Assembly: GCA_016188575.1 (NCBI GenBank)
Contig: JACPHN010000109.1
Span: 1 to 33,625, forward strand
Reading direction: 5' to 3'
DNA length: 33,625 bases
From: Candidatus Schekmanbacteria bacterium
Lineage (GTDB): Bacteria; CSSED10-310; JACPHN01
A program made the translations under genes and the position numbers. Positions 4,242-30,225 of this stretch are shown here, one piece after another; position 1 is the first letter of the stretch; each line of letters opens with the position of its first letter. The notes beneath the pieces were generated by a model. That model searched no databases. It was not told the DNA's origin and saw only the letters and a program-made list of their open reading frames with translations.

Positions 4242-5528
4242 ATGGGCACCAACGACTGGCTCGACGACGACTTCTTCAAAGACCTTCCGGGTTTCTCCGA
4301 CGAACCGCGAGAACCCGCCATCCCCAAAGCCGAGGAAGCGCCGCCCGGCATGGACCTGCTCCTCTCGCTTTGGGACGACATAGGCGCAATCGTCTCTTTC
4401 GACGAGCTGCTCGCGCGCTTGCTCGACGAAATCGTCGCCTTGACCAAAGCCGAGCGCGGGTTCTTTATTCTGTTCGGTAGGCAGAATGCCCTGGAGGTGC
4501 GCGTTGCACGCGGACGCTTCCAGACCTCGATTGACCTGTCGCAGGTCAAGCTCAGCCAGAGCACGCTCACGAAAGTGGCCACAACGCTCGAGCCGCTGAT
4601 CTCGACAGACATCTCCGGAGACGAGAATCTCTCGACGCAGGCCTCGATTGTCGACCTGAATCTGCGCATGGTGATGTGTGTTCCCATGCTCAGCGCCTCG
4701 CACAAGGTGGGCCTCATCTACGTGGACAGCCGCATGACGACCAAGGAGTTCACGCCGGGAGACCTCGATCGCTTCGTGGCTCTCGCCGGGCAGGCCGCAG
4801 TGGCCGTCGATAACGTGCGGCTCTATGCCGAGCTGCATACCTCGGTCGATCGGCTGGTGACCGACCGCTACCGGGTAGCGGGCATCTGTGAAACGGCCGC
4901 GGAAATCGGCGGGGATTTCTATGAGCTCGGCGAGATCCGCCGGGGCGATCGCCGCTACCTCGCGCTGGCCGTCGGCGACGTCAGCGGGCACGGCATTGCC
5001 TCGGGCATGCTCGCGGCCGTTTCCAAGGTCTACCTGCGGCGCGAAATCGAAAAGAGCTTGTATCCCCGCATCGTCCTGCCGGCCCTCAATCAGCTCATCT
5101 ACCACGTGGCCCGCGAGAATCTGCTGGTGTCGCTGTTCTATACGTTGATCGACGTGGAGACCGGGGAAATGTGGTATAGCAACGCGGGGCAAAACTTCCC
5201 TTACGTGCACGTCGGCAATGGCAGCGAGTTTTCGCCGATCGAGCTCGGCGCCTTTCCCCTCGGCCTGGGCCGGGGAACCAGCTACGTCGAGCGCTCCATG
5301 GCGCTTCCCCGCGGATCGACTCTCGTGATCTACACCGACGGTGTCATCGAAGCGGAGACGGCAGCCGGAGAGTCCTACGGCTACGAGCGCTTCAAGTCCC
5401 GCATTACGCGCGACTTGCAGCTCGATCCCGAAGGCGCGATGGTGGCGTTGGCCGAGGACGTCAAGCGCTTTCGCGGCAGCGCCGGCGAGCTCGACGACGA
5501 CCTGACCGTCGTGGTCTTCAAGCGCTGA
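4242..5528 (+). CDS. GAF domain-PP2C (SpoIIE/RsbU-type) serine phosphatase
   Basis: A 428-residue cytosolic protein. Residues about 45-200 form a GAF sensor domain (start SFDELLARLLDEIVALTKAE, end FVALAGQAAVAVDNVRLYAEL). The remainder is a SpoIIE/RsbU-type PPM phosphatase with the metal-binding signatures EIGGDFYE (D225), VGDVSGHG (D246), YTDGVIEA and DDDLTVVVF. Relatives dephosphorylate anti-anti-sigma factors or similar phosphoserine proteins in response to a ligand. No STAS-domain or RsbW-type partner lies nearby. Only 13 bp separate its stop from aapJ, so it is probably co-transcribed with the transporter and may link the signal to uptake. All metal-binding positions look intact. Confidence 0.88.
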   Translation: MGTNDWLDDDFFKDLPGFSDEPREPAIPKAEEAPPGMDLLLSLWDDIGAIVSFDELLARLLDEIVALTKAERGFFILFGRQNALEVRVARGRFQTSIDLSQVKLSQSTLTKVATTLEPLISTDISGDENLSTQASIVDLNLRMVMCVPMLSASHKVGLIYVDSRMTTKEFTPGDLDRFVALAGQAAVAVDNVRLYAELHTSVDRLVTDRYRVAGICETAAEIGGDFYELGEIRRGDRRYLALAVGDVSGHGIASGMLAAVSKVYLRREIEKSLYPRIVLPALNQLIYHVARENLLVSLFYTLIDVETGEMWYSNAGQNFPYVHVGNGSEFSPIELGAFPLGLGRGTSYVERSMALPRGSTLVIYTDGVIEAETAAGESYGYERFKSRITRDLQLDPEGAMVALAEDVKRFRGSAGELDDDLTVVVFKR

Positions 5529-5541
5529 GGCTGGTCCGGCA

Positions 5542-6558
5542 ATGGCGCGACGCGTGGTGATCCTCGGCGCAGTGGCGGTGGCCGCACTGCTGTTGGCCGC
5601 AGTCGAGGCCAGCGCGGGGATCCTCGCGGACGTAAAGGCGCGCGGCGAGATGAAGTGCGGGATCAACGGCCAGCTTCCCGGCTTTGCCTACCCGAGCTCG
5701 CGCGGTGAGATGGAGGGGTTCGATGTCGAGATGTGCAAGGCGCTCGCGGCCGCGATCGGCGTCAAGGTAAGGCTCGTCCCGCTGACGGCGAAGGAGCGGT
5801 TCACCGCGCTGCAATCGGGGGAGATCGACGTCCTGTACCGCAACACCTCCTGGACGTTCAGCCGCGACGTCGCGCTGGCGCTCAGTTTTCAGGGTGTGAG
5901 CTACTACGACGGCCAGGGGTTCCTGGTGCGCGGGAACGCCGGGGTAAAGTCGGCCAAGGAGCTCGACGGCGCCGCGGTTTGTGTTGCCACGGGCACGACC
6001 ACCGAGCTGAACTTGTCGGATTATTTTCGCGCCCAGCAGATGAAGCTGCGGCCGGTGGTGTTTGAAAGCACCGAGAGCATGCGCGCCGCATACGAGGCCG
6101 GGCGCTGCGACGTGCTCTCGTCCGATGTCTCCGGCCTGGCGGCCATGCGCAGCGCCATGTCCGCACCCGACACCCACGTCATCCTCCCCGAGATCATCTC
6201 GAAGGAGCCGCTCGGCCCGGTGACGCGGCACGGGGACGAGGCCTGGGGAGACACCGTGCGCTGGGTGCTCAATGCGCTGATTCTTGCCGAGGAGCTCGGA
6301 GTCGGCAAGGCCAATGCGGCGGATCGCGCCGCCGCATCTCCAGACCCAAACGTGCAACGGCTGCTCGGCAAGACCGGCTCGTTCGGCAAGGACCTGGGTC
6401 TCGACGCCGACTGGGCCTTGCGGGCGATTCTTGTGACCGGAAACTATGGCGAGATCTTCGCGCGCACGATCGGCGCGCAGTCCACCCTGAAGCTCGAGCG
6501 CGGCATGAACCGATTGTGGTCGGACGGCGGCCTGTTGTTCGCACCGCCGATCCGGTAG
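5542..6558 (+). CDS. aapJ: Amino-acid ABC transporter periplasmic binding protein (AapJ/BztA type)
   Basis: A 338-residue SBP_bac_3 protein with a clear signal peptide (hydrophobic ILGAVAVAALLLAAVEASAG, cleavage near residue 25). Hallmarks of the AapJ/BztA general polar amino-acid branch are MKCGINGQLPGFAYP, GFDVEMCKALAAAIG, LYRNTSWTFSRD and CVATGTTTELNLSDYF; the length fits that branch. It would capture L-amino acids in the periplasm and hand them to AapQM. In typical aap operons aapJ is followed directly by aapQ. Here two proteasome-like genes are inserted between them. Confidence 0.9.
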   Translation: MARRVVILGAVAVAALLLAAVEASAGILADVKARGEMKCGINGQLPGFAYPSSRGEMEGFDVEMCKALAAAIGVKVRLVPLTAKERFTALQSGEIDVLYRNTSWTFSRDVALALSFQGVSYYDGQGFLVRGNAGVKSAKELDGAAVCVATGTTTELNLSDYFRAQQMKLRPVVFESTESMRAAYEAGRCDVLSSDVSGLAAMRSAMSAPDTHVILPEIISKEPLGPVTRHGDEAWGDTVRWVLNALILAEELGVGKANAADRAAASPDPNVQRLLGKTGSFGKDLGLDADWALRAILVTGNYGEIFARTIGAQSTLKLERGMNRLWSDGGLLFAPPIR

Positions 6559-6580: not shown

Positions 6581-7633
6581 ATGGCGACTGTATTGCTCAT
6601 GCGTTTCAATCATGACCAGGGCGCGGCACTCGCCGACGAATCGACGTGGCACATGAGCTTCAAGTATGGCTATCGCCGCTCCAACCTAGGCGATGCCATC
6701 TTTTCCCTGCTGGCCGGAGATGCGGGCGAGGGGGCCGGCGTAACCGCCCTCTACGCGGGTGTGGGTTTTCCTTCGTTTCACCGCGAGGTCGCTGACCGTT
6801 CCGTGGGCCTCCTGGCGGGGCCACCGCCCGCCGCCGGCGAGCCCCCAAGGAGTGTTCGCAACCTCAGCGCACTGGTCTTCTCACAGTACCAGCACGTGCA
6901 TCGCCGCATGGTGGATGACCGCCTGCGCTTTCTTTGGGGATTCGGCCTCGATGGCCTCAACTCGCTGACCCTGAACCGCGGCGGCGTAAGCGACACCATC
7001 GCTCAGGAGGCGATCATCGCCGAGGCCAAGAAAATCGCTGCCAACAGCGAGCATTCCGATCCGCAACTGCGCATCTTTTCCAACAATGGCGCGGTTCTGG
7101 GACATTCCGCTCGCGAAGGCCTGCAGGCATACTCGATGTCCGGCGAGCAATGCGCGCTCGACCTCACCTCCGCCGTCACCGTCCTCGGCGATGGGGATCA
7201 GGTCGCCACGCACGCCTTCGGGCGCTTCGCGCACGCCATGAATCTTCAGCAGCGCCGCGACGGCTGGGAGCTGGCCGACGGGCTTCTCGTGCTCCTGCAG
7301 GTCGCCACGGAGACGACCGAATTCCAGGTGCGCATGGGAGGGTACTATCAGCTCGGCATCGTCGACGGCGCCACCAGCCGGCCTGGGGCCCGGCTGCGCC
7401 GGCACGACGGTCACCGCTTGAAGCTCGCCTCCGAGGTGGCGCGCGCGGTATCGTGGAAGCAGCTCGAGCGCGCTGCCGGCGTCGAGCTCGTGGGTGGCTT
7501 GCTGCTCGGCGATGAGGACTTCGACGACTGCGAGCGCCGGATGTTCGCCGGCGCGCGCGACGCGGCTGCGCTCCGCCACCGCCTCCACGGTTTCAAACCG
7601 TCGTGGTCGCCCACCGCCACCTGCACGGAGTAG
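6581..7633 (+). CDS. Proteasome-fold (Ntn-hydrolase-like) protein, predicted catalytically inactive partner
   Basis: A 350-residue cytosolic protein with no signal peptide; GAGG seven bases before ATG 6581. I do not recognise it as a named family. It aligns by eye to the next gene: both begin with a short strand ending RFNH at residues 8-11, then a DE pair at 19-20. Later come a LGDGD loop (residues 202-206), matching the GSGS turn of proteasome subunits, and an RMGGYY turn (251-256), matching the SGG turn. The residue after Met, which would be the Ntn nucleophile, is Ala, followed by Thr3. No Lys sits at the position of proteasome Lys33 (residue 35 is Asn). I infer a non-catalytic, alpha-like subunit. 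An insertion of about 80-100 residues in the middle makes it longer than a classical subunit. The next gene starts five bases after its stop. Confidence 0.7.
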   Translation: MATVLLMRFNHDQGAALADESTWHMSFKYGYRRSNLGDAIFSLLAGDAGEGAGVTALYAGVGFPSFHREVADRSVGLLAGPPPAAGEPPRSVRNLSALVFSQYQHVHRRMVDDRLRFLWGFGLDGLNSLTLNRGGVSDTIAQEAIIAEAKKIAANSEHSDPQLRIFSNNGAVLGHSAREGLQAYSMSGEQCALDLTSAVTVLGDGDQVATHAFGRFAHAMNLQQRRDGWELADGLLVLLQVATETTEFQVRMGGYYQLGIVDGATSRPGARLRRHDGHRLKLASEVARAVSWKQLERAAGVELVGGLLLGDEDFDDCERRMFAGARDAAALRHRLHGFKPSWSPTATCTE

Positions 7634-7637
7634 CCCC

Positions 7638-8744
7638 ATGACCTCGATCAACGCCATCCGTTTCAACCATTACGAAGGCGCTTGCATTTGCGACGAAGTC
7701 ACGACGTCCGGCGGCGACATGCGCGTGGAGGTCTCCGACAAGATCCGCCCCGCCATGCCACGGCCGATTGTCGATCGCTACGGCACCGTTGCGGCGATCG
7801 GCACGACCGGATCTTGCTCTACCGGTCAAGCGATCAAGGACGCGTTCAGCCACCGTGTCCTGCGGCATTTCGAGGCCGAGGTAGACAAGCGCGGGGCCGC
7901 TCCGGAGCGCTTCCTGTCCCTGCGCGACCTCGCCGCGCTACTTTTTGACGTCATCGTCGACCTCAAGTTCGACGCCCTTTCCGACCTGCTCCGCGGCCAG
8001 CACGGGTTCAGCCTTCCCGAGCTCTATGCGGGCGCCTACCGCCGCGCCGACGAACGGTACGAGATCCGCGACAAGGACGTCATCCGCGATATCGTCGCCA
8101 TGCTGGCCTGGAAAAGCCAGCAAGAGGTGACCAGCGCGATCTTCAACAACGCCGCGCTCATGGCCGGTTACGACGAGCAGGACGGATTCGCCATCTATCA
8201 GTTCGACCAGCGCGGCGGCGGGTACTGGCACCGGGTCCACACGTTCTACCTTGCGGAGGGGTCGGGACGCCATTCGTTCGATCCAGCGATGTTTCCCTTC
8301 GCCGAGAAGCTGCTGGCAAGCGAGCGCCGCGGTGAGGTGGATCGCGCCGAGGGCATGCTGATGATGTTGCACGGCCTCAACCAGGCGGCGGAGCACGAAA
8401 TGGGCGTGGGCGGATACCCGAATATCCTCCTGTTCAATGGGCGCTGTGCGGACCACGCCGCGCGCGTGGTCGAGATCAACGACGAGAGATCGCTGCTGGC
8501 CAGCCACGTCGCGCACGGCCTGCAGTGGGGCTTCATCCGGCACGACCTCGCGTGCGAGCTCATCGATGACCTGCTGTTTCGCGATCGCACCTGGCAGAGC
8601 GTCGCGGACCGCCTGTTCGCCGCCGTGCCCGACGAGCGCTCGTTTTCCCTCGCGCTGAGGGGTTACAAGCTGCTCCCTCACCGGCACGAAATCGCGCCGC
8701 CGCGACCGAGCGTCGCGGAGCGGGCGCCGTATCCGCGTAACTGA
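7638..8744 (+). CDS. Proteasome-fold (Ntn-hydrolase-like) protein, predicted active subunit
   Basis: A 368-residue cytosolic protein. ATG 7638 is chosen because it has GGAG upstream and starts at the fold's first strand; an open frame upstream overlaps the previous gene. After Met removal the N-terminus is Thr-Ser. Asp19 and Lys35 (Met numbering) fall at the spacing of proteasome-beta Asp17 and Lys33. AIGTTGSCSTGQAI (about 53-66) resembles the Gly47 helix-start region. AGYDEQDGFAIYQFD (176-190) and LAEGSGRHS (205-213) match the G-D and GSGS strands and turns, and MGVGGYPNILLF the S-G-G turn, with Ser169 replaced by Val. Residues about 75-165 form an extra helical insertion. Probable threonine amidohydrolase or peptidase acting with the preceding paralogue; substrate unknown. 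The fold assignment rests on motif spacing, not on a search. Confidence 0.72.
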   Translation: MTSINAIRFNHYEGACICDEVTTSGGDMRVEVSDKIRPAMPRPIVDRYGTVAAIGTTGSCSTGQAIKDAFSHRVLRHFEAEVDKRGAAPERFLSLRDLAALLFDVIVDLKFDALSDLLRGQHGFSLPELYAGAYRRADERYEIRDKDVIRDIVAMLAWKSQQEVTSAIFNNAALMAGYDEQDGFAIYQFDQRGGGYWHRVHTFYLAEGSGRHSFDPAMFPFAEKLLASERRGEVDRAEGMLMMLHGLNQAAEHEMGVGGYPNILLFNGRCADHAARVVEINDERSLLASHVAHGLQWGFIRHDLACELIDDLLFRDRTWQSVADRLFAAVPDERSFSLALRGYKLLPHRHEIAPPRPSVAERAPYPRN

Positions 8745-8761: not shown

Positions 8762-10159
8762 ATGGCGGCAGGGGCTGAGCTCGGGCGGCCAATCGCACCG
8801 TGGCGCGATCTCCGGGTCCGCGCACTGGCCTGCCAGGTGGCGGTGCTTGCACTGGTCCTGGGCGCCGTGTGGCGTATCGCCGCGAACACGCGGGCGAATC
8901 TGGAGCAACGCGGCATCGCCTCGGGATTCGCCTTTCTCGGCAATGAGGCCGGCTTTGCCGTGAGCGAAGCGACGCCGCTGCCGGTGTTGGATGGCGCGTT
9001 GTTGTCCGCCACGCTCGTCGTTGCGCTCGGCGCCGTTGCCGTCGTTCTCGCCCGCGGTCGAGCTCGCCGCAAAGGCGTCGATCACCGTTCAGACTCGCTC
9101 TGCCAGGCGGCGTTACTGATCATGTTGTTGTTGTTGTTGACGGTGGTCGTTGTCGGCGCTGACCGCCTGTCCTTTCGCACCTACTCCGCGGCGGACACGT
9201 ACCTGCAGGCACTCGCCGTCGGTGCGGCCAATACCCTGAAAGTGTCCGTCCTCGGCTGTCTGGGCGCAACCGTGCTCGGAGGGGCGATCGGCATCTCCCG
9301 TCTGTCGTCAAACTGGCTGCTGGCACGGCTGGCCGCAGCGTACGTGGAGATCGTGCGCAACGTTCCGCTGCTCGTGCAGCTCAGCTTCTGGTATTTTGCC
9401 GTGCTCGGCGCCCTTCCCGGCCCGCGCGACAGCATTGCGCTCGGCCTGGCGACCTTGAACAATCGAGGGCTCTACCTGCCCTGGCCGGTGCTGGCGCCAC
9501 CGTGGCGAAGCCACGTCGTCGCTTTGGTCGCCGGCGTGGCTCTAGCGTCGTTGTGGCGCTTTCGGCGGCTACGCGCGCACTCGCGCCTCCCCCCGCTCGC
9601 GGGGGGAGGGCCTGGGTGGGGGGGAGGTCGCCTGGTGGGTCCGCTCCTCGCCGTTGGCCCCTCCGCAGTCACGCTGGCGCTTACCGGCACGCCGCTCTAC
9701 TTCGATTATCCCGTGCTCGCGGGATTCAATTTTCGTGGCGGCGTAGCGCTGACTCCGGAGCTCACCGCGTTGCTCGGCGGCCTCATTCTGTACACGGCCG
9801 CTTTTGTCGCCGAAATCGTGCGCAGCGGCATCCTGGCAGTTCCCGCGGGCCAGCGGGAAGCCGCCCTGGCTCTCGGGCTCTCGCGTGGTCGGACCCTACA
9901 CCTGGTCCTCCTGCCGCAAGCCCTGCGGGTCATGATCCCGCCGTTGACGAACCAGTATCTGAATCTCACCAAGAACAGCTCGCTCGGAGTCGCCATCGCC
10001 TACCCCGAGATCGTCAGCGTAGGGGGCACCGTTCTCAATCAGAGTGGTCAGGCGATCGAGACCATCGGCATCATGATGGCGGTGTATTTGGGTCTCAGCC
10101 TGAGCATTTCCGCGTACATGAGCTGGCATCATGCCCAGGGACAGCGCGCGGAGCGATGA
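8762..10159 (+). CDS. aapQ: Amino-acid ABC transporter permease AapQ/BztB type, with two insertions
   Basis: A 465-residue inner-membrane protein of the AapQ branch. Its N-terminus (ANLEQRGIASGFAFLGNEAGF) and core (GAANTLKVS, YVEIVRNVPLLVQL, FNFRGG, YTAAFVAEIVRSGI) are typical, and so is the EAA loop (QREAALALGLSRGRTLHLVLLPQALR). It is about 65 residues longer than usual AapQ. One extra segment, about residues 71-138, adds two hydrophobic stretches and five consecutive TTG Leu codons (9125-9139) before YSAADTY. A second change, near residues 275-290, is a REP-like palindrome translated as LPPLAGGG in the cytoplasmic loop before the conserved core. The frame stays open throughout. It pairs with AapM to form the membrane channel. 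Confidence 0.88.
   Translation: MAAGAELGRPIAPWRDLRVRALACQVAVLALVLGAVWRIAANTRANLEQRGIASGFAFLGNEAGFAVSEATPLPVLDGALLSATLVVALGAVAVVLARGRARRKGVDHRSDSLCQAALLIMLLLLLTVVVVGADRLSFRTYSAADTYLQALAVGAANTLKVSVLGCLGATVLGGAIGISRLSSNWLLARLAAAYVEIVRNVPLLVQLSFWYFAVLGALPGPRDSIALGLATLNNRGLYLPWPVLAPPWRSHVVALVAGVALASLWRFRRLRAHSRLPPLAGGGPGWGGGRLVGPLLAVGPSAVTLALTGTPLYFDYPVLAGFNFRGGVALTPELTALLGGLILYTAAFVAEIVRSGILAVPAGQREAALALGLSRGRTLHLVLLPQALRVMIPPLTNQYLNLTKNSSLGVAIAYPEIVSVGGTVLNQSGQAIETIGIMMAVYLGLSLSISAYMSWHHAQGQRAER
9586..9630 (+). repeat. REP-like palindromic element inside aapQ
   Basis: CCTCCCCCCG (9586-9595) and CGGGGGGAGG (9600-9609) form a perfect 10-bp stem with a 4-base loop, followed by a second G-rich block. 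It is in frame and translated as LPPLAGGGPGWGGG. Confidence 0.7.
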
Positions 10160-10160
10160 G

Positions 10161-11261
10161 ATGAGCGCGCTACGCGACACGAACGTTGGGGGTGGCACGC
10201 CGCGGTGGTGGGGTCAGGCAGCAGCCTGGGTCGGGCGCAACTTGTTTGCTACCTGGTACGACGGCCTTCTGACTCTGGCGCTACTCGCGGGCATGTATGC
10301 CGCCGGGGGCGCGACTTTTCGGTGGATGGTAACTGCCGCCGGATTTGGCTCCGGACCTGAGGCCTGCGCCAGCCGTTCGGGTGCGTGCTGGGCTTTTGTC
10401 TATGAGATGGGGCCGCTCTTTCTGGTCGGCTCCTACCCGTTCGCCGAGCGGTGGCGGCCGCTCGCCGCGCTCGCCGTGCTGGCGGTGCTGGTGCTTGCGA
10501 GCGTTTTTGAGCGCGTCCGCCGCCATCGCCTGTTTTTTCCGCTCTGTGTCGCGAGCAGCGCGGGCGCCGCGCTGCTGGTCCGCGGCGCCGGCGCGCTCGG
10601 GCTGCCTCCCGTTGACGCCGAGCTCTGGGGCGGCGCGCTGCTCACGATCGCGCTGTCGAGCGCCGGCATCGCGGCAGCGTTTCCACTCGGCGTCCTGCTC
10701 GCGCTGGGCCGCACCAGCCGTGCGCTGCCCGTGATCCGCACCGTGTGCGCGAGCTACATCGAGCTTGTCCGCGGGGTGCCGCTGGTGACGCTGCTCTTCA
10801 TGTCGTCCGTGATGTTGCCGCTGTTCTTCCCGCCGGGATTCGAGATCTCCAAGGTATTTCGCGCGCAGATCGCTGTCGTGCTGTTCTCTGCCGCCTACGT
10901 CGCCGAGGTCGTGCGCGGCGGCCTACACGCCGTTCCGCGTGGTCAGGTGGAAGCTGCCCACGCGCTCGGCCTGACCTGGTCGCGCACGATGGCACTGGTG
11001 GTTCTTCCTCAGGCGCTTCGCGCCGTGATTGGGCCGCTCGTGAGCACCTTCATCGCGCTGCTGAAGGACACGTCGCTGGTGGCGATCATTGGCCTGCACG
11101 ATTTGCTTGGGATGGCGGCGCTCACGACCGCGAACCCGCGCTGGGTAGGGCGCATGGTCGAGGCCTATGTCGTTGTCGCCGCGCTCTACTGGATGCTATG
11201 CTCTAGCCTGTCCCGCTTTGGCAGATACGCGGAAAATCGGCGCAAGGAAGGATCGCCATGA
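10161..11261 (+). CDS. aapM: Amino-acid ABC transporter permease AapM/BztC type
   Basis: A 366-residue inner-membrane permease. I place the start at ATG 10161, one base after the aapQ stop, with GGAG eight bases upstream; an upstream in-frame ATG would overlap aapQ. AapM features include [12 protein letters not shown] near the N-terminus, [54 protein letters not shown], and the EAA loop ending [19 protein letters not shown] followed by [10 protein letters not shown]. It forms the translocation pore with AapQ and contacts the ATPase through the EAA loop. Its stop overlaps the aapP start (ATGA), indicating translational coupling. Confidence 0.92.
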
Positions 11262-12007
11262 GCGACGAGCGCGAGGTGGTGATCGAGCTTGCCGGCGTGC
11301 ACAAGTGGTTTGGCCGCTATCATGCGCTGCGCGGTATCGACCTTGCGGTGGGCCGAGGCGAGCGGCTGGTGATCTGCGGTCCCTCGGGATCCGGGAAATC
11401 GACGCTGATCCGGACCATAAACTGCCTGGAAGCGCACGACGGCGGTCGCATCGTGGTCGATGGCATCGAGCTGACGCCGGACTTGAAGCGGGTCGAGCGG
11501 GTGCGCGCCGAAGTGGGGATGGTGTTTCAGCAGTTTCATCTTTTCCCCCACCTCACCGTGCTCGACAACGTGACCCTCGCCCCGACGTGGGCGCGCGGCC
11601 TGCCACGCACGCAGGCGGATCGGGAGGCCCTGGAGCTGCTCGCGCGGGTGGGAATTCGCGACCAGGTGGGCAAATACCCGGGACAGTTGTCGGGCGGGCA
11701 GCAGCAGCGCGTGGCGATTGCGCGCGCCCTGGCGATGCACCCCAAGGTGATGCTCTTTGACGAGCCGACGTCGGCTCTCGACCCGGAGATGATCAAGGAG
11801 GTGCTCGACGTGCTGCGGGATCTGGCGCGTGAGGGCATGACCATGATGGTAGTGACACATGAAATGGGATTCGCTCGCGAAGTGGCGGACCGCGTCGTGT
11901 TCATGGACGCGGGGCAGATCGTCGAATCCGCGCCGCCGGATCGGTTTTTTGCGAATCCCGAGCACGAGCGCACGCGGCTTTTCCTGAGTCGCATCCTGCA
12001 CCACTGA
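11258..12007 (+). CDS. aapP: Amino-acid ABC transporter ATP-binding protein AapP/BztD type
   Basis: A 249-residue cytosolic ABC ATPase of the polar amino-acid family. Visible motifs are Walker [10 protein letters not shown], a Q-loop in [11 protein letters not shown], signature [15 protein letters not shown], Walker [15 protein letters not shown], and the H-loop VTHEMGFA. Length and the [17 protein letters not shown] tail match family members. It powers the AapQM channel. Start and stop overlap both neighbours (ATGA with aapM, TGATG with the GNAT gene), so it lies inside a tightly coupled operon. Confidence 0.95.
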
Positions 12008-13973: not shown

Positions 13974-15224
13974 TCAGAGCAGTCGCGCTCCACACTTGCC
14001 ACACACCGGATGCTTGTGCAGAATGTCATAGCTCGGGATCCGATTCTTGGCCTTGCATCCGGAGCATACGACTATCGATGGTTGGTCTGCTTCTCTTTTC
14101 CACGAAACGCTTTCTGCATTCCTGTCCGCCGTTCTTTCGGCTTGCTCGAGTAGTGCAATAATCCTCGATTTCGCGGTAGCTTCGGCATTATTATATGTGT
14201 GCTTCTGGCTCACCTCGACCGCTTCCCGGGGGGTTCTTCCGTCCGCGTTTAGGCACCATGGGTTTGCACCGCTGGCTAGCAGCAGCTCCACCGCTTCCGG
14301 CTTGGCTTCGAGCCCCGCAAGGTGTAACGGAGCACACCCGCGGTGGAAGCGCCCATCGACGTTCCAGCCGTGATCTACCAGCACACGTACGCAATCCGGA
14401 TGCCGAAAAACTGGGCTATAATGCAGCAGATCAGCGGGCGCCTGGGCGCGTCCCGTCAGCCCGACTAGATAGGTCAACGTCGCGGACTGACCACCCATGA
14501 TGGCATGATGGAATGGCGTGAGCTTCCATTTGTCCATGGCCTGCAGATCATGGCCTCTCGCGAGAAGATACTGGATGACGGGAATGCACCCGCCCTCCGC
14601 GGCATTCATCACCAAGGTAACGCCACCGGGGTCCACCAGAGCTCCGCTTGGTATTCTGCGTTCGAGCACCGCGAGCGCGATAGCGGAATGACCCTTCCGG
14701 AGGGCAGTGCGAAGGGAGCACATCGAGCTCGTGACTCCGGCGTTTGCCCCTCGGGACATCAGGAAGCTCACAAGGTCCAGTTGGCCGCGTTCGACTGCGA
14801 CGTCCAGTGCCCTCTCGATTTCTGCCTGCGTCGGCGTGACAGAAGCCAACGCCGACAGGTCCCCACGAATCACCGCCTGGACAATTGGCGAGGAAAGCCG
14901 CCTGCACGCTGTCGCCTCGATCGTGGCGATCCATCGTCTTACCCAGTCCAGGTAGTCGCACGGCTCGGGCCCAGAGTCCGACCACTGATGGAAAACCTCG
15001 AGACGGCCGTCGCTGTAATTTTCCCAAGCACCATTCCGCACTCCCGCATGACCCCACCCACGGCCGTCTATCTCCAGACTCATGATCAGGTCATGGTCAT
15101 AGAACAAGCATAGCTGGTGGAGCTGTCCGTCCGGGTGAAAGGAGGCGGTGATTCCATCCCTTGCTTGCTCCGGATAGCTATGGCTCAGGAAACTTTGGCC
15201 GACAAACGGTACGGTTTGAATCAT
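13974..15224 (-). CDS. Ankyrin-repeat protein with C-terminal zinc ribbon
   Basis: A 416-residue protein. ATG 15224 has AGGAG seven bases upstream; a longer frame starts at 15281 without such a site. Residues about 1-110 (PFVGQSFLSHSYPEQARDG, SWSDSGPEP-like region, DYLDWVRRWI) are unrecognised and may be an independent domain. Then come roughly seven ankyrin-type units (for example VTLVMNAAEGGCIPVIQYLL and GCAPLHLAGLEAKPEAVELL). The last 35 residues form a zinc ribbon, CSGCKAKNRIPSYDILHKHP then VCGKCGARL, resembling the N-terminal zinc finger of thioredoxin TrxC. No signal peptide. Probably a protein-interaction factor; function unknown. Base composition upstream is locally AT-richer than the surroundings. 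Confidence 0.75.
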   Translation of the reverse strand: MIQTVPFVGQSFLSHSYPEQARDGITASFHPDGQLHQLCLFYDHDLIMSLEIDGRGWGHAGVRNGAWENYSDGRLEVFHQWSDSGPEPCDYLDWVRRWIATIEATACRRLSSPIVQAVIRGDLSALASVTPTQAEIERALDVAVERGQLDLVSFLMSRGANAGVTSSMCSLRTALRKGHSAIALAVLERRIPSGALVDPGGVTLVMNAAEGGCIPVIQYLLARGHDLQAMDKWKLTPFHHAIMGGQSATLTYLVGLTGRAQAPADLLHYSPVFRHPDCVRVLVDHGWNVDGRFHRGCAPLHLAGLEAKPEAVELLLASGANPWCLNADGRTPREAVEVSQKHTYNNAEATAKSRIIALLEQAERTADRNAESVSWKREADQPSIVVCSGCKAKNRIPSYDILHKHPVCGKCGARLL

Positions 15225-15340
15225 ATCGGCTCTCCTGGGGCGGTGAAACAGTAGGGAGGCAATGTATAATAACGTAAACATTTGTACGATTCTCCGTAGG
15301 CAACCGCGGAGAACGCCGAGAACGCTGAGGAGGCGCGCAA

Positions 15341-28089: not shown

Positions 28090-29189
28090 GCACACCGCCG
28101 GGAGGCTTCGCCGGGGCGCTGACGGTGGACGGCCTGCATATCGAAGAGCTGCCCAGGGCCGCGGTGACGCGTCTGGAAGTGGATATCGCGCACGACGGTT
28201 TTGGGCGGCCGATTCGCATTCCCGTGCTCGCCATGCGCGGCTCGCGGCCGGGACCGGTGTTCGGGGTCACCGCCGCGGTGCACGGCAACGAGCTCAATGG
28301 CATTCCGATCATCCACAGCCTGTTCGCGTCGATCGATCCCCAGGCGCTGCGGGGCACCTTGGTCGCCGTCATCGTCATGAATGTTCCGGGGTATGGGCGG
28401 GAGCAGCGCGCGTTCGCCGACGGCACCGACCTCAATCAGATCATGCCAGGCAGCCCCACAGGGAGCTCGGCGCGCGTCTACGCGCATCGCTTCATCGACC
28501 AGGTGGTGCGCCATTTCGATTACCTGGTCGATCTGCACACGGCGAGCTTTGGGCGCGTCAACTCGCTGTACGTGCGCGCCGACATGAGCGACCCGGTCAC
28601 CGCGAGGATGGCGTATCTCCAGCGGCCGCAGATCATCGTGCACAACCCCCCGTCCGACCACACGCTCAGAGGCGCCGCCCAGGACCTGGGAATTCCCGCC
28701 ATCACCCTCGAGGCCGGCAATCCCCACCGTTTCCATCGCGACTACATTCGGCGGGCGCTCGGCGGGATGCGTGCGGTGCTGGCCGCGGCCGACCTGATCG
28801 GGGGCCGCTCGTTGGCGATCGGAAAGCAGCCGGTGCTTTGCCGAACGTCCTATTGGCTATATACCGAACACGGCGGGTTGCTCGACGTCTACCCGGACGT
28901 GACCGACCGGGTGCACGCCGACGCCGTGATCGCGTCGCTGGCGAACATCTTCGGCGACGTTGAGCGGCGCTACCGATCACCGGAGTCGGGCATCGTCATC
29001 GGCAAGAGCGTCAACCCGGTCGCGCAGACCGGGGCGCGGATCCTCCATCTCGGCATACTCGCGGCCGAGGGCGAGGTCTTCGAGAGGGACGAGGCGTCGC
29101 CGACGGAAGCCCCGCCACCTCACCGCCCACCGCTTGCGGGTGGAGACGAGGAGGGGGCAGCGCGATCTCCGGAATCGCCGGAGGGCTGA
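28086..29189 (+). CDS. Succinylglutamate desuccinylase/aspartoacylase-family zinc hydrolase
   Basis: A 367-residue M14-like metallohydrolase. Zinc ligands are visible: His66 and Glu69 in AAVHGNELNG and His151 in LVDLHTASFG. The catalytic Glu is probably Glu209 in TLEAGNPH. DGTDLNQIMPG provides the substrate-binding DxNRxFPG-like loop with Gln in place of Arg. The family cleaves N-acyl amino acids or trims C-terminal residues. It overlaps the preceding ATP-grasp-like gene by four bases and precedes a GshB-like ligase by four. The last roughly 25 residues (after EVFERDEA) derive from a REP-like element and read PPPHRPPLAGGDEEG, an apparent C-terminal extension. Cytosolic, no signal peptide. Confidence 0.85.
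   Translation: MSTPPGGFAGALTVDGLHIEELPRAAVTRLEVDIAHDGFGRPIRIPVLAMRGSRPGPVFGVTAAVHGNELNGIPIIHSLFASIDPQALRGTLVAVIVMNVPGYGREQRAFADGTDLNQIMPGSPTGSSARVYAHRFIDQVVRHFDYLVDLHTASFGRVNSLYVRADMSDPVTARMAYLQRPQIIVHNPPSDHTLRGAAQDLGIPAITLEAGNPHRFHRDYIRRALGGMRAVLAAADLIGGRSLAIGKQPVLCRTSYWLYTEHGGLLDVYPDVTDRVHADAVIASLANIFGDVERRYRSPESGIVIGKSVNPVAQTGARILHLGILAAEGEVFERDEASPTEAPPPHRPPLAGGDEEGAARSPESPEG
29119..29158 (+). repeat. REP-like palindromic element at the 3' end of the AstE-type gene
   Basis: TCACCGCCCACCGCTTGCGG, then GTGGAGACGAGGAGGGGGC: the same C-rich/GCTTGC/G-rich layout as the other copies, in frame and translated as PPLAGG within the C-terminal tail. Confidence 0.6.
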
Positions 29190-29193
29190 CGCC

Positions 29194-30225
29194 TTGGGAG
29201 CACGCCGCCACCGCATCGTTTTTGTCGTCAACGAGGTCATGGAGATCGCGGCGACGCAAACTACCGCGATGCTCATGCGGAGCGCCGCCGCCGCTGGACA
29301 CCCGGTGCTCGTGGCGGGGGTGCTCGACCTGTCCGCGCGTGGCGACGGTCTGGTGAGCGTCACGGCAAGCGATGTCGATGGTGCCTGCGCGGGCACGTGC
29401 GCGGAGCTCGTCGCCGCCCTTGGGGCAGCGTCGCGTCACCGCCGGATCGAGCTGTCGAGCCGGGACATCGTCATGCTGCGCACCAACCCCGCCCGTGACC
29501 GTGCGCGCGCCTGGGCCCACGAGCTGCTTCTCGGCTTTGCGCGGCTCGCGCAGGAGCGGGGCACCTGCGTCATAAACGACCCGGACGGGCTGGCGCGGTC
29601 GTCCTCGAAGCTGTTCCTGCTGTCGCTGCTGCCGCGCGAGCTGGCGCCGGCATCGCTGGTCACGCGCAGCGCGGCGGATGTCGCCGCGTTTGCCGCAGCG
29701 GTCGGCGGTGCCGTGGTGGTCAAGCCCGCGCGCGGGACGCGGGGGCGTAACGTGCAACTGTTGCGCGCTCCGGACATCGCGCCGGCACGTGCGGCGCTCG
29801 CGCCGATCGCGGTGGACGATTACGCATTGGTCCAGGAGTACTTGCCACAGGCTGTCGACGGAGACGTGCGGGTCGTGGTGCTCGACGGTGCCGTCCTCGA
29901 GGTCGCCGGTCGGGTCGCGGCGATCCGACGGATTCCGGCGCCGGGCGACTTTCGCTCAAACCTTCATGCCGGCGGCACGGCGGCGCCCGCGACCGTCAGC
30001 GGCGCGATGCGGCAGGCAGCCAATGCCATTGCGCAGAAGCTCCAGAACGAAGGAGTTTACCTCGCGGGCATCGACTTTGTCGGCGAGAAGGTCGTCGAGG
30101 TCAACACCTTCAGCACCGGAGGCCTGCGGGACGCCGAGCGCTTCTGTGGTGTGGACTTCTGCTCGGGCATCATCGCGGCGGCGGTGCGGCGGGCTGAGGA
30201 GGTTCGCAGCAGATGCAAGGTTTGA
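29194..30225 (+). CDS. Glutathione-synthetase-like (GshB-type) ATP-grasp ligase
   Basis: A 343-residue ligase starting at TTG 29194, with GGAGG nine bases upstream and the family N-terminus (HRIVFVVNEVMEIAATQTTA). GshB-type landmarks follow in order: DIVMLRTNPARDRARAWAHE, CVINDPDGLARSSSKLFLL, the ATP-binding strand VVVKPARGTRGRN (Lys167), and DYALVQEYLPQAVDGDVRVV. Then come RRIPAPGDFRSNLHAGG and the metal-binding GIDFVGEKVVEVNTFSTGG. It would form a peptide bond between a gamma-carboxyl or amino-acid carboxylate and an amine. No GshA-type enzyme is present, so glutathione itself is not the obvious product. It is the third gene of a tightly packed trio. Confidence 0.82.
   Translation: MGARRHRIVFVVNEVMEIAATQTTAMLMRSAAAAGHPVLVAGVLDLSARGDGLVSVTASDVDGACAGTCAELVAALGAASRHRRIELSSRDIVMLRTNPARDRARAWAHELLLGFARLAQERGTCVINDPDGLARSSSKLFLLSLLPRELAPASLVTRSAADVAAFAAAVGGAVVVKPARGTRGRNVQLLRAPDIAPARAALAPIAVDDYALVQEYLPQAVDGDVRVVVLDGAVLEVAGRVAAIRRIPAPGDFRSNLHAGGTAAPATVSGAMRQAANAIAQKLQNEGVYLAGIDFVGEKVVEVNTFSTGGLRDAERFCGVDFCSGIIAAAVRRAEEVRSRCKV

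Follow-up and report, generated by a model that had tools for sequence, protein, structure and literature searches.

A proteasome-like gene pair with an intact active site in one partner and a predicted loss of it in the other

Introduction

In the 20S proteasome, alpha and beta subunits form a stack of four rings with seven members each. To our knowledge, work on how active and inactive proteasome subunit types originated has relied essentially on a single example. Among the relatives of the 20S subunits, Anbu forms an open helical assembly through a C-terminal H5 coiled coil. Its operon contains an ATP-grasp gene (PMC6376114, PMC5666114). Fuchs, Alva and Lupas (2021) described 22 new proteasome-like families; the sections of that paper available to us give no informative gene context for them, and report neither an active/inactive pair nor a tandem inactive partner (PMC8665760). 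The families were clusters of at least 10 members from an August 2020 database. Three of them, PHI, PMI-3 and PMI-4, are described there as having an insertion after helices H1/H2 and a Thr or Ser nucleophile, with a further insertion between H3 and H4 in PMI-3 and PMI-4 (PMC8665760).

Here we analysed two adjacent genes, A and B, in a 33,625-nucleotide stretch of bacterial DNA, which as a whole is called the window. A preliminary description had proposed that both encode proteasome-like hydrolases serving an amino-acid importer. No paper on this A-B pair was found in the literature.

Results

Two paralogous genes in tandem

Gene A (positions 6581-7633, 350 aa) and gene B (7638-8744, 368 aa) lie on the forward strand, and B starts 4 bases past A; the positions and lengths previously given for both reading frames were correct. 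The two proteins share 24% identity (BLASTP, E 2e-20), and a profile-profile comparison aligned them over 349 columns with a probability of 100%, so their paralogy is not a matter of chance. The sequence features first noticed in the pair were also found again. RFNH occupies residues 8-11 and Asp-Glu residues 19-20 in both proteins, the Gly-rich turn is G208-S209-G210 in B and G203-D204-G205 in A, and the late GG turn is G258-G259 in B and G253-G254 in A. Thr2, Asp19 and Lys35 of B were all located as described.

Predicted fold

Structures were predicted with AlphaFold, using aligned homologues as input (36 for B, 29 for A). The B model had a pLDDT of 86 and a pTM of 0.83, and the A model a pLDDT of 88 and a pTM of 0.87. 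Foldseek searches of the PDB returned best E values of 7.5e-9 for B and 1.4e-7 for A, both with probability 1.0. For both proteins the top rows consisted exclusively of proteasome and Anbu structures, with 20S subunits first and Anbu in the leading rows. With VIA-align, B matched the human 20S chain 5le5_b at Z 20.1, with residue 2 of the model on residue 1 of the chain; for A, the top structural match was Anbu, at Z 20.9. In these alignments, residue 2 of the models coincided with the N-terminal residue of mature beta chains. The proteasome-type four-layer Ntn fold proposed for both proteins is thus the fold predicted by the models (Foldseek probability 1.0, VIA Z about 20).

Sequence searches pointed in the same direction, faintly for the window protein and more clearly for relatives. 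The B protein of the window scored 14.0 bits against PF00227, under the cut-off of 22.4, and nearly all matches of the B profile in the PDB were proteasome subunits, at marginal E values (best 0.018). One B homologue matched TIGR03634, the archaeal proteasome beta model, at 9.5e-7. The profile phrog_1040 ("peptidase HslV family") matched 14 of the 36 B homologues (best 8.3e-6), and applied to whole genomes it detected B genes, at 8e-5 to 7e-3, in five members of the window's phylum. No significance was reached when the profile was compared with four HslV/20S sequences, the alignment probably being too thin. Broad surveys with PF00227 and phrog_1040 for PMI-like proteins returned mainly HslV-like and 20S-like matches. 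Tandem PF00227 matches resembling 20S alpha/beta genes were seen in genomes G002 and G007, and the window's own genome has a separate, ordinary HslV-type protease elsewhere (L121:5598-6614; L122:2308-3932).

In the B model, helices at residues 60-85 and 95-122 are followed by an insertion after H1/H2 at residues 126-169 (8013-8144, forward strand), modelled as two short strands and three helices. The secondary structure of the A model has an insertion at the same place. Only about 8 extra residues are modelled between H3 and H4 in either protein. Because A and B share this insertion and align over their whole length, they are sisters rather than separate descendants of the alpha and beta lines.

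The active site is intact in B and lost in A

By hand alignment, we take five residues of B to be the counterparts of the human beta1 catalytic set: Thr2 (codon at 7641-7643) of Thr1, Asp19 (7692-7694) of Asp17, Lys35 (7740-7742) of Lys33, Gly58 (7809-7811) of the oxyanion Gly47, and Ser209 in G208-S209-G210 (8259-8267) of Ser129 in the GSG motif, all codons being on the forward strand. Each was kept in 36 of 36 B homologues, including the Thr2, Asp19 and Lys35 whose conservation had been in question. The equivalent of proteasome Asp166 was not conserved across the B homologues. The beta-subunit spacing claimed for B was only partly borne out: Asp19 and Lys35 are 16 residues apart, as are Asp17 and Lys33, whereas Thr2 and Asp19 are 17 apart against 16 for Thr1 and Asp17. 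The S1-S2 turn of B is one residue longer than that of a beta subunit, which accounts for the difference. The patterns of the genome-contig scan included the MT motif. However, five B proteins outside these patterns had Met-Thr, Asp and Lys as well, so the conservation is no artefact of the search.

The A proteins were altered at the corresponding sites. Codon 2 of A (6584-6586, forward strand), at the position of the B nucleophile, encodes Ala, and the 29 homologues had Ala in 16, Gly in 7 and Ser in 6. The position of B Lys35 is Ala at residue 39 of A (6695-6697, forward strand) and was Asn, Ser, His, Cys, Ala or Tyr in the homologues, never Lys (0/29). The GSG serine was kept in one of 29, and Asp19 was retained. 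Since the nucleophilic Thr, the Lys and the GSG serine have been lost, A is predicted to be a catalytically inactive partner. The notion that both proteins are hydrolases does not hold for A, in which Thr and Lys are missing from all 29 homologues.

Removal of Met before Thr is established behaviour of methionine aminopeptidase, and Thr2 of B is the predicted N-terminal nucleophile once Met is gone. Intact residues in B are no guarantee of proteolysis, because in Anbu the catalytic residues are likewise preserved, yet studies of it detected no peptidase activity (PMC6376114, PMC5666114).

Distribution and co-inheritance

The A-B family is rare, and its distribution is patchy. Within the phylum of the window (CSSED10-310), pairs were present in 6 of 7 other genomes examined, with up to four pairs per genome. 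Searching 386 diverse genomes with a profile gave no pair beyond this phylum. Among 84,980 species genomes scanned there were 34 loci, which added Planctomycetota, Eremiobacterota, Wallbacteria, Muiribacteriota and metagenome-assembled genomes of Bacteroidota/Ignavibacteria. The pair occurred in 7 of 44 genomes of one Bacteroidota order, and in 2 of 149 genomes of the phylum to which genome G387 belongs.

Except at two loci with a solitary B, A is the gene immediately upstream of B, and the two often overlap at ATGA. The solitary B genes (L058:10001-11044 and L135:6050-7255) come from genomes that also contain complete A-B pairs. At one locus (L043:10201-13437; G001:C154), an A-B-B' triple contains a tandem of two divergent catalytic B genes. 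The distance matrices of A and B over 33 pairs correlated with r 0.89, a value reached by none of 5000 shuffles; with shuffling confined to genomes, again none of 5000 reached it, and the mean was 0.53. The joint tree split cleanly into A and B with support 1.0. These comparisons show the pair to be an evolutionary unit that goes back to a single old duplication and has been inherited jointly since. The mirrored trees are no proof of contact between A and B, because tight gene linkage alone can give mirroring.

No relatives of the pair were found in viral contigs, phages or plasmids, and a mobile or phage origin was rejected. A defence system was also considered and dropped, there being no PADLOC match.

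Genomic context

In the window the pair belongs to a run of co-directed genes on the forward strand. A GAF-SpoIIE phosphatase (4242-5528) and a family 3 amino-acid substrate-binding protein (5542-6558, ending 22 bases before A) precede it. An amino-acid ABC permease (8762-10159) begins 17 bases past B, followed by a second permease (10131-11261) and a GlnQ/HisP-type amino-acid ABC ATPase (11258-12007). The run also includes a GNAT-like protein. Elsewhere in the window lie a glutathione-synthetase-like ATP-grasp gene (28960-30225), some 20 kb downstream of A-B, and, on the minus strand, an ankyrin-repeat protein (13974-15281).

At other loci the surroundings varied. A polyprenyl synthetase stood beside the pair on the same strand at five CSSED10-310 loci, and other same-strand neighbours were an M23 peptidase, an M29 aminopeptidase and UbiA. 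Two CSSED10-310 genomes had the same-strand order M20 peptidase-A-B-circularly permuted ATP-grasp (L039:7062-11938 and L042:7029-11878), which recalls the Anbu operon. In Bacteroidota/Ignavibacteria, A-B was found amid same-strand genes for a putative cyclase of the kynurenine-formamidase type, a kynureninase and an FAD monooxygenase (L075:400-4727 and L076:8060-13806); a third run was assigned to this kynurenine-type pathway by its similar gene order (L082:8107-14542). Peptide and amino-acid enzymes recur among the neighbours, and no neighbour is constant. Such diversity suggests a general module for processing peptides or amides that is partnered with different pathways, possibly with amino-acid uptake in the window.

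Discussion

A two-subunit particle and its alternatives

We consider it probable that A and B are two subunits of a proteasome-like particle, with B as the catalytic subunit and A as its dead sister. Removal of Met would expose Thr2 of B as the N-terminal nucleophile, with no propeptide involved. Lys35 and Asp19 would activate Thr2, and Gly58 would form the oxyanion hole. B may then hydrolyse, or acyl-transfer, peptide or other amide bonds. A most likely contacts B and might shape assembly, substrate entry or allostery; by analogy with the 20S proteasome, its role could be the one played there by inactive alpha and beta subunits. The active/inactive split seems to have arisen within the A-B family, later than the shared insertions, and would therefore be independent of the alpha/beta split. 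Complex formation, as a ring or an open assembly, and hydrolase activity are inferred, as are the self-assembly and amidohydrolase activity first proposed for the pair.

The original idea assigned the pair to the importer operon as its own enzyme, acting on whatever substrate is taken up. In its favour, 22, 4 and 17 bases separate the successive genes from the binding protein to the first permease, and some neighbours at other loci also concern amino acids or peptides, including M20, M29, a family 5 binding protein and kynureninase. However, the order binding protein-A-B-permease was seen only in the window among about 35 A-B loci surveyed; it was absent from the roughly 34 others, including the nearest sequence relatives (L052-L056), and neighbours elsewhere are also prenyl synthases, a GH31 protein, a protein kinase and an enoyl-CoA hydratase. 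We therefore regard a dedicated importer enzyme as quite unlikely, and the importer context appears incidental. It is also unlikely, in our estimate, that B is a connectase-like transpeptidase/ligase, or an Anbu-like peptidase opposing an ATP-grasp ligase, instead of a degradative protease. Connectase demonstrates that ligation is possible with a proteasome fold (PMC8665760), and the M20-A-B-ATP-grasp order would fit an opposing ligase. Against this, B has H1/H2 but not the large S3/S4 insertion of connectase, the ATP-grasp neighbour falls under its own Pfam cut-off and is missing from most loci, and transglutaminase and alpha-E were not found in the window. A further alternative holds that A and B work independently, each as a single-subunit enzyme or binding protein, and are adjacent because of tandem duplication. 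The two loci with B alone agree with it, but the genes have stayed together in several phyla, even where a genome has as many as four divergent pairs, and the divergence of A and B runs in step. We judge such independence improbable, and favour the two-subunit particle.

Significance

What is new here is that the first protein appears to be dead, and that the pair is old, co-inherited and present in several phyla. Tentatively, at slightly less than even chances, bacteria may have invented, a second time and independently, the proteasome principle of one active and one inactive subunit: a hetero-oligomeric Thr-hydrolase particle from a duplication separate from alpha/beta, in several pathway-specific copies. 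If so, a second active/inactive pair would make the question of the subunit split testable, as the system is small enough for co-expression and divergent copies exist. The proteasome-like family would also gain a branch whose partner gene is conserved.

Comparison with known proteasome-like systems

The pair resembles 20S alpha and beta subunits in its predicted fold, in the Thr1/Asp17/Lys33/Gly47/Ser129 set of one partner, and in having an inactive paralogous partner. In contrast to the 20S subunits, A and B are about 150 residues longer, with the insertion after H1/H2 and C-terminal helices, share their insertions as sisters, and have no propeptide. No AAA+ unfoldase was identified among the neighbours of the pairs examined. 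HslV, to which some B homologues have weak but significant sequence similarity (phrog_1040), has about 175 aa and acts with HslU, whereas A and B have 350-368 aa, and no HslU was among the annotated neighbours.

Anbu (COG3484) shares the fold, the lack of a propeptide, and the ATP-grasp gene that adjoins some A-B pairs. However, it is a single subunit encoded with ATP-grasp, alpha-E and transglutaminase, whereas A-B is an active/inactive pair with varied neighbours. The ATP-grasp-like gene stands beside two related pairs only and is absent from the operon of the window, within which neither of the other two Anbu hallmarks was found. Connectase is similar in having a proteasome-like fold outside the classic barrel. 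It lacks H1/H2 and has a two-helix insertion between S3 and S4, whereas the B model has H1/H2 and no such insertion.

The great length that had seemed to set both proteins apart from all known members has precedents, since several members in Fuchs et al. 2021 carry long insertions (PMC8665760). PHI, PMI-3 and PMI-4, as described there, are alike in fold, in the insertion after H1/H2 and in using a Thr or Ser nucleophile; they differ in that neither a tandem inactive partner nor informative gene context was reported for them. Many of the A-B genomes appear, from their accession prefixes, to have been deposited after August 2020. Taken together, and with PHI and PMI compared by description, our best reading is that the pair constitutes a candidate new branch of the proteasome-like family, probably a hetero-oligomeric one.
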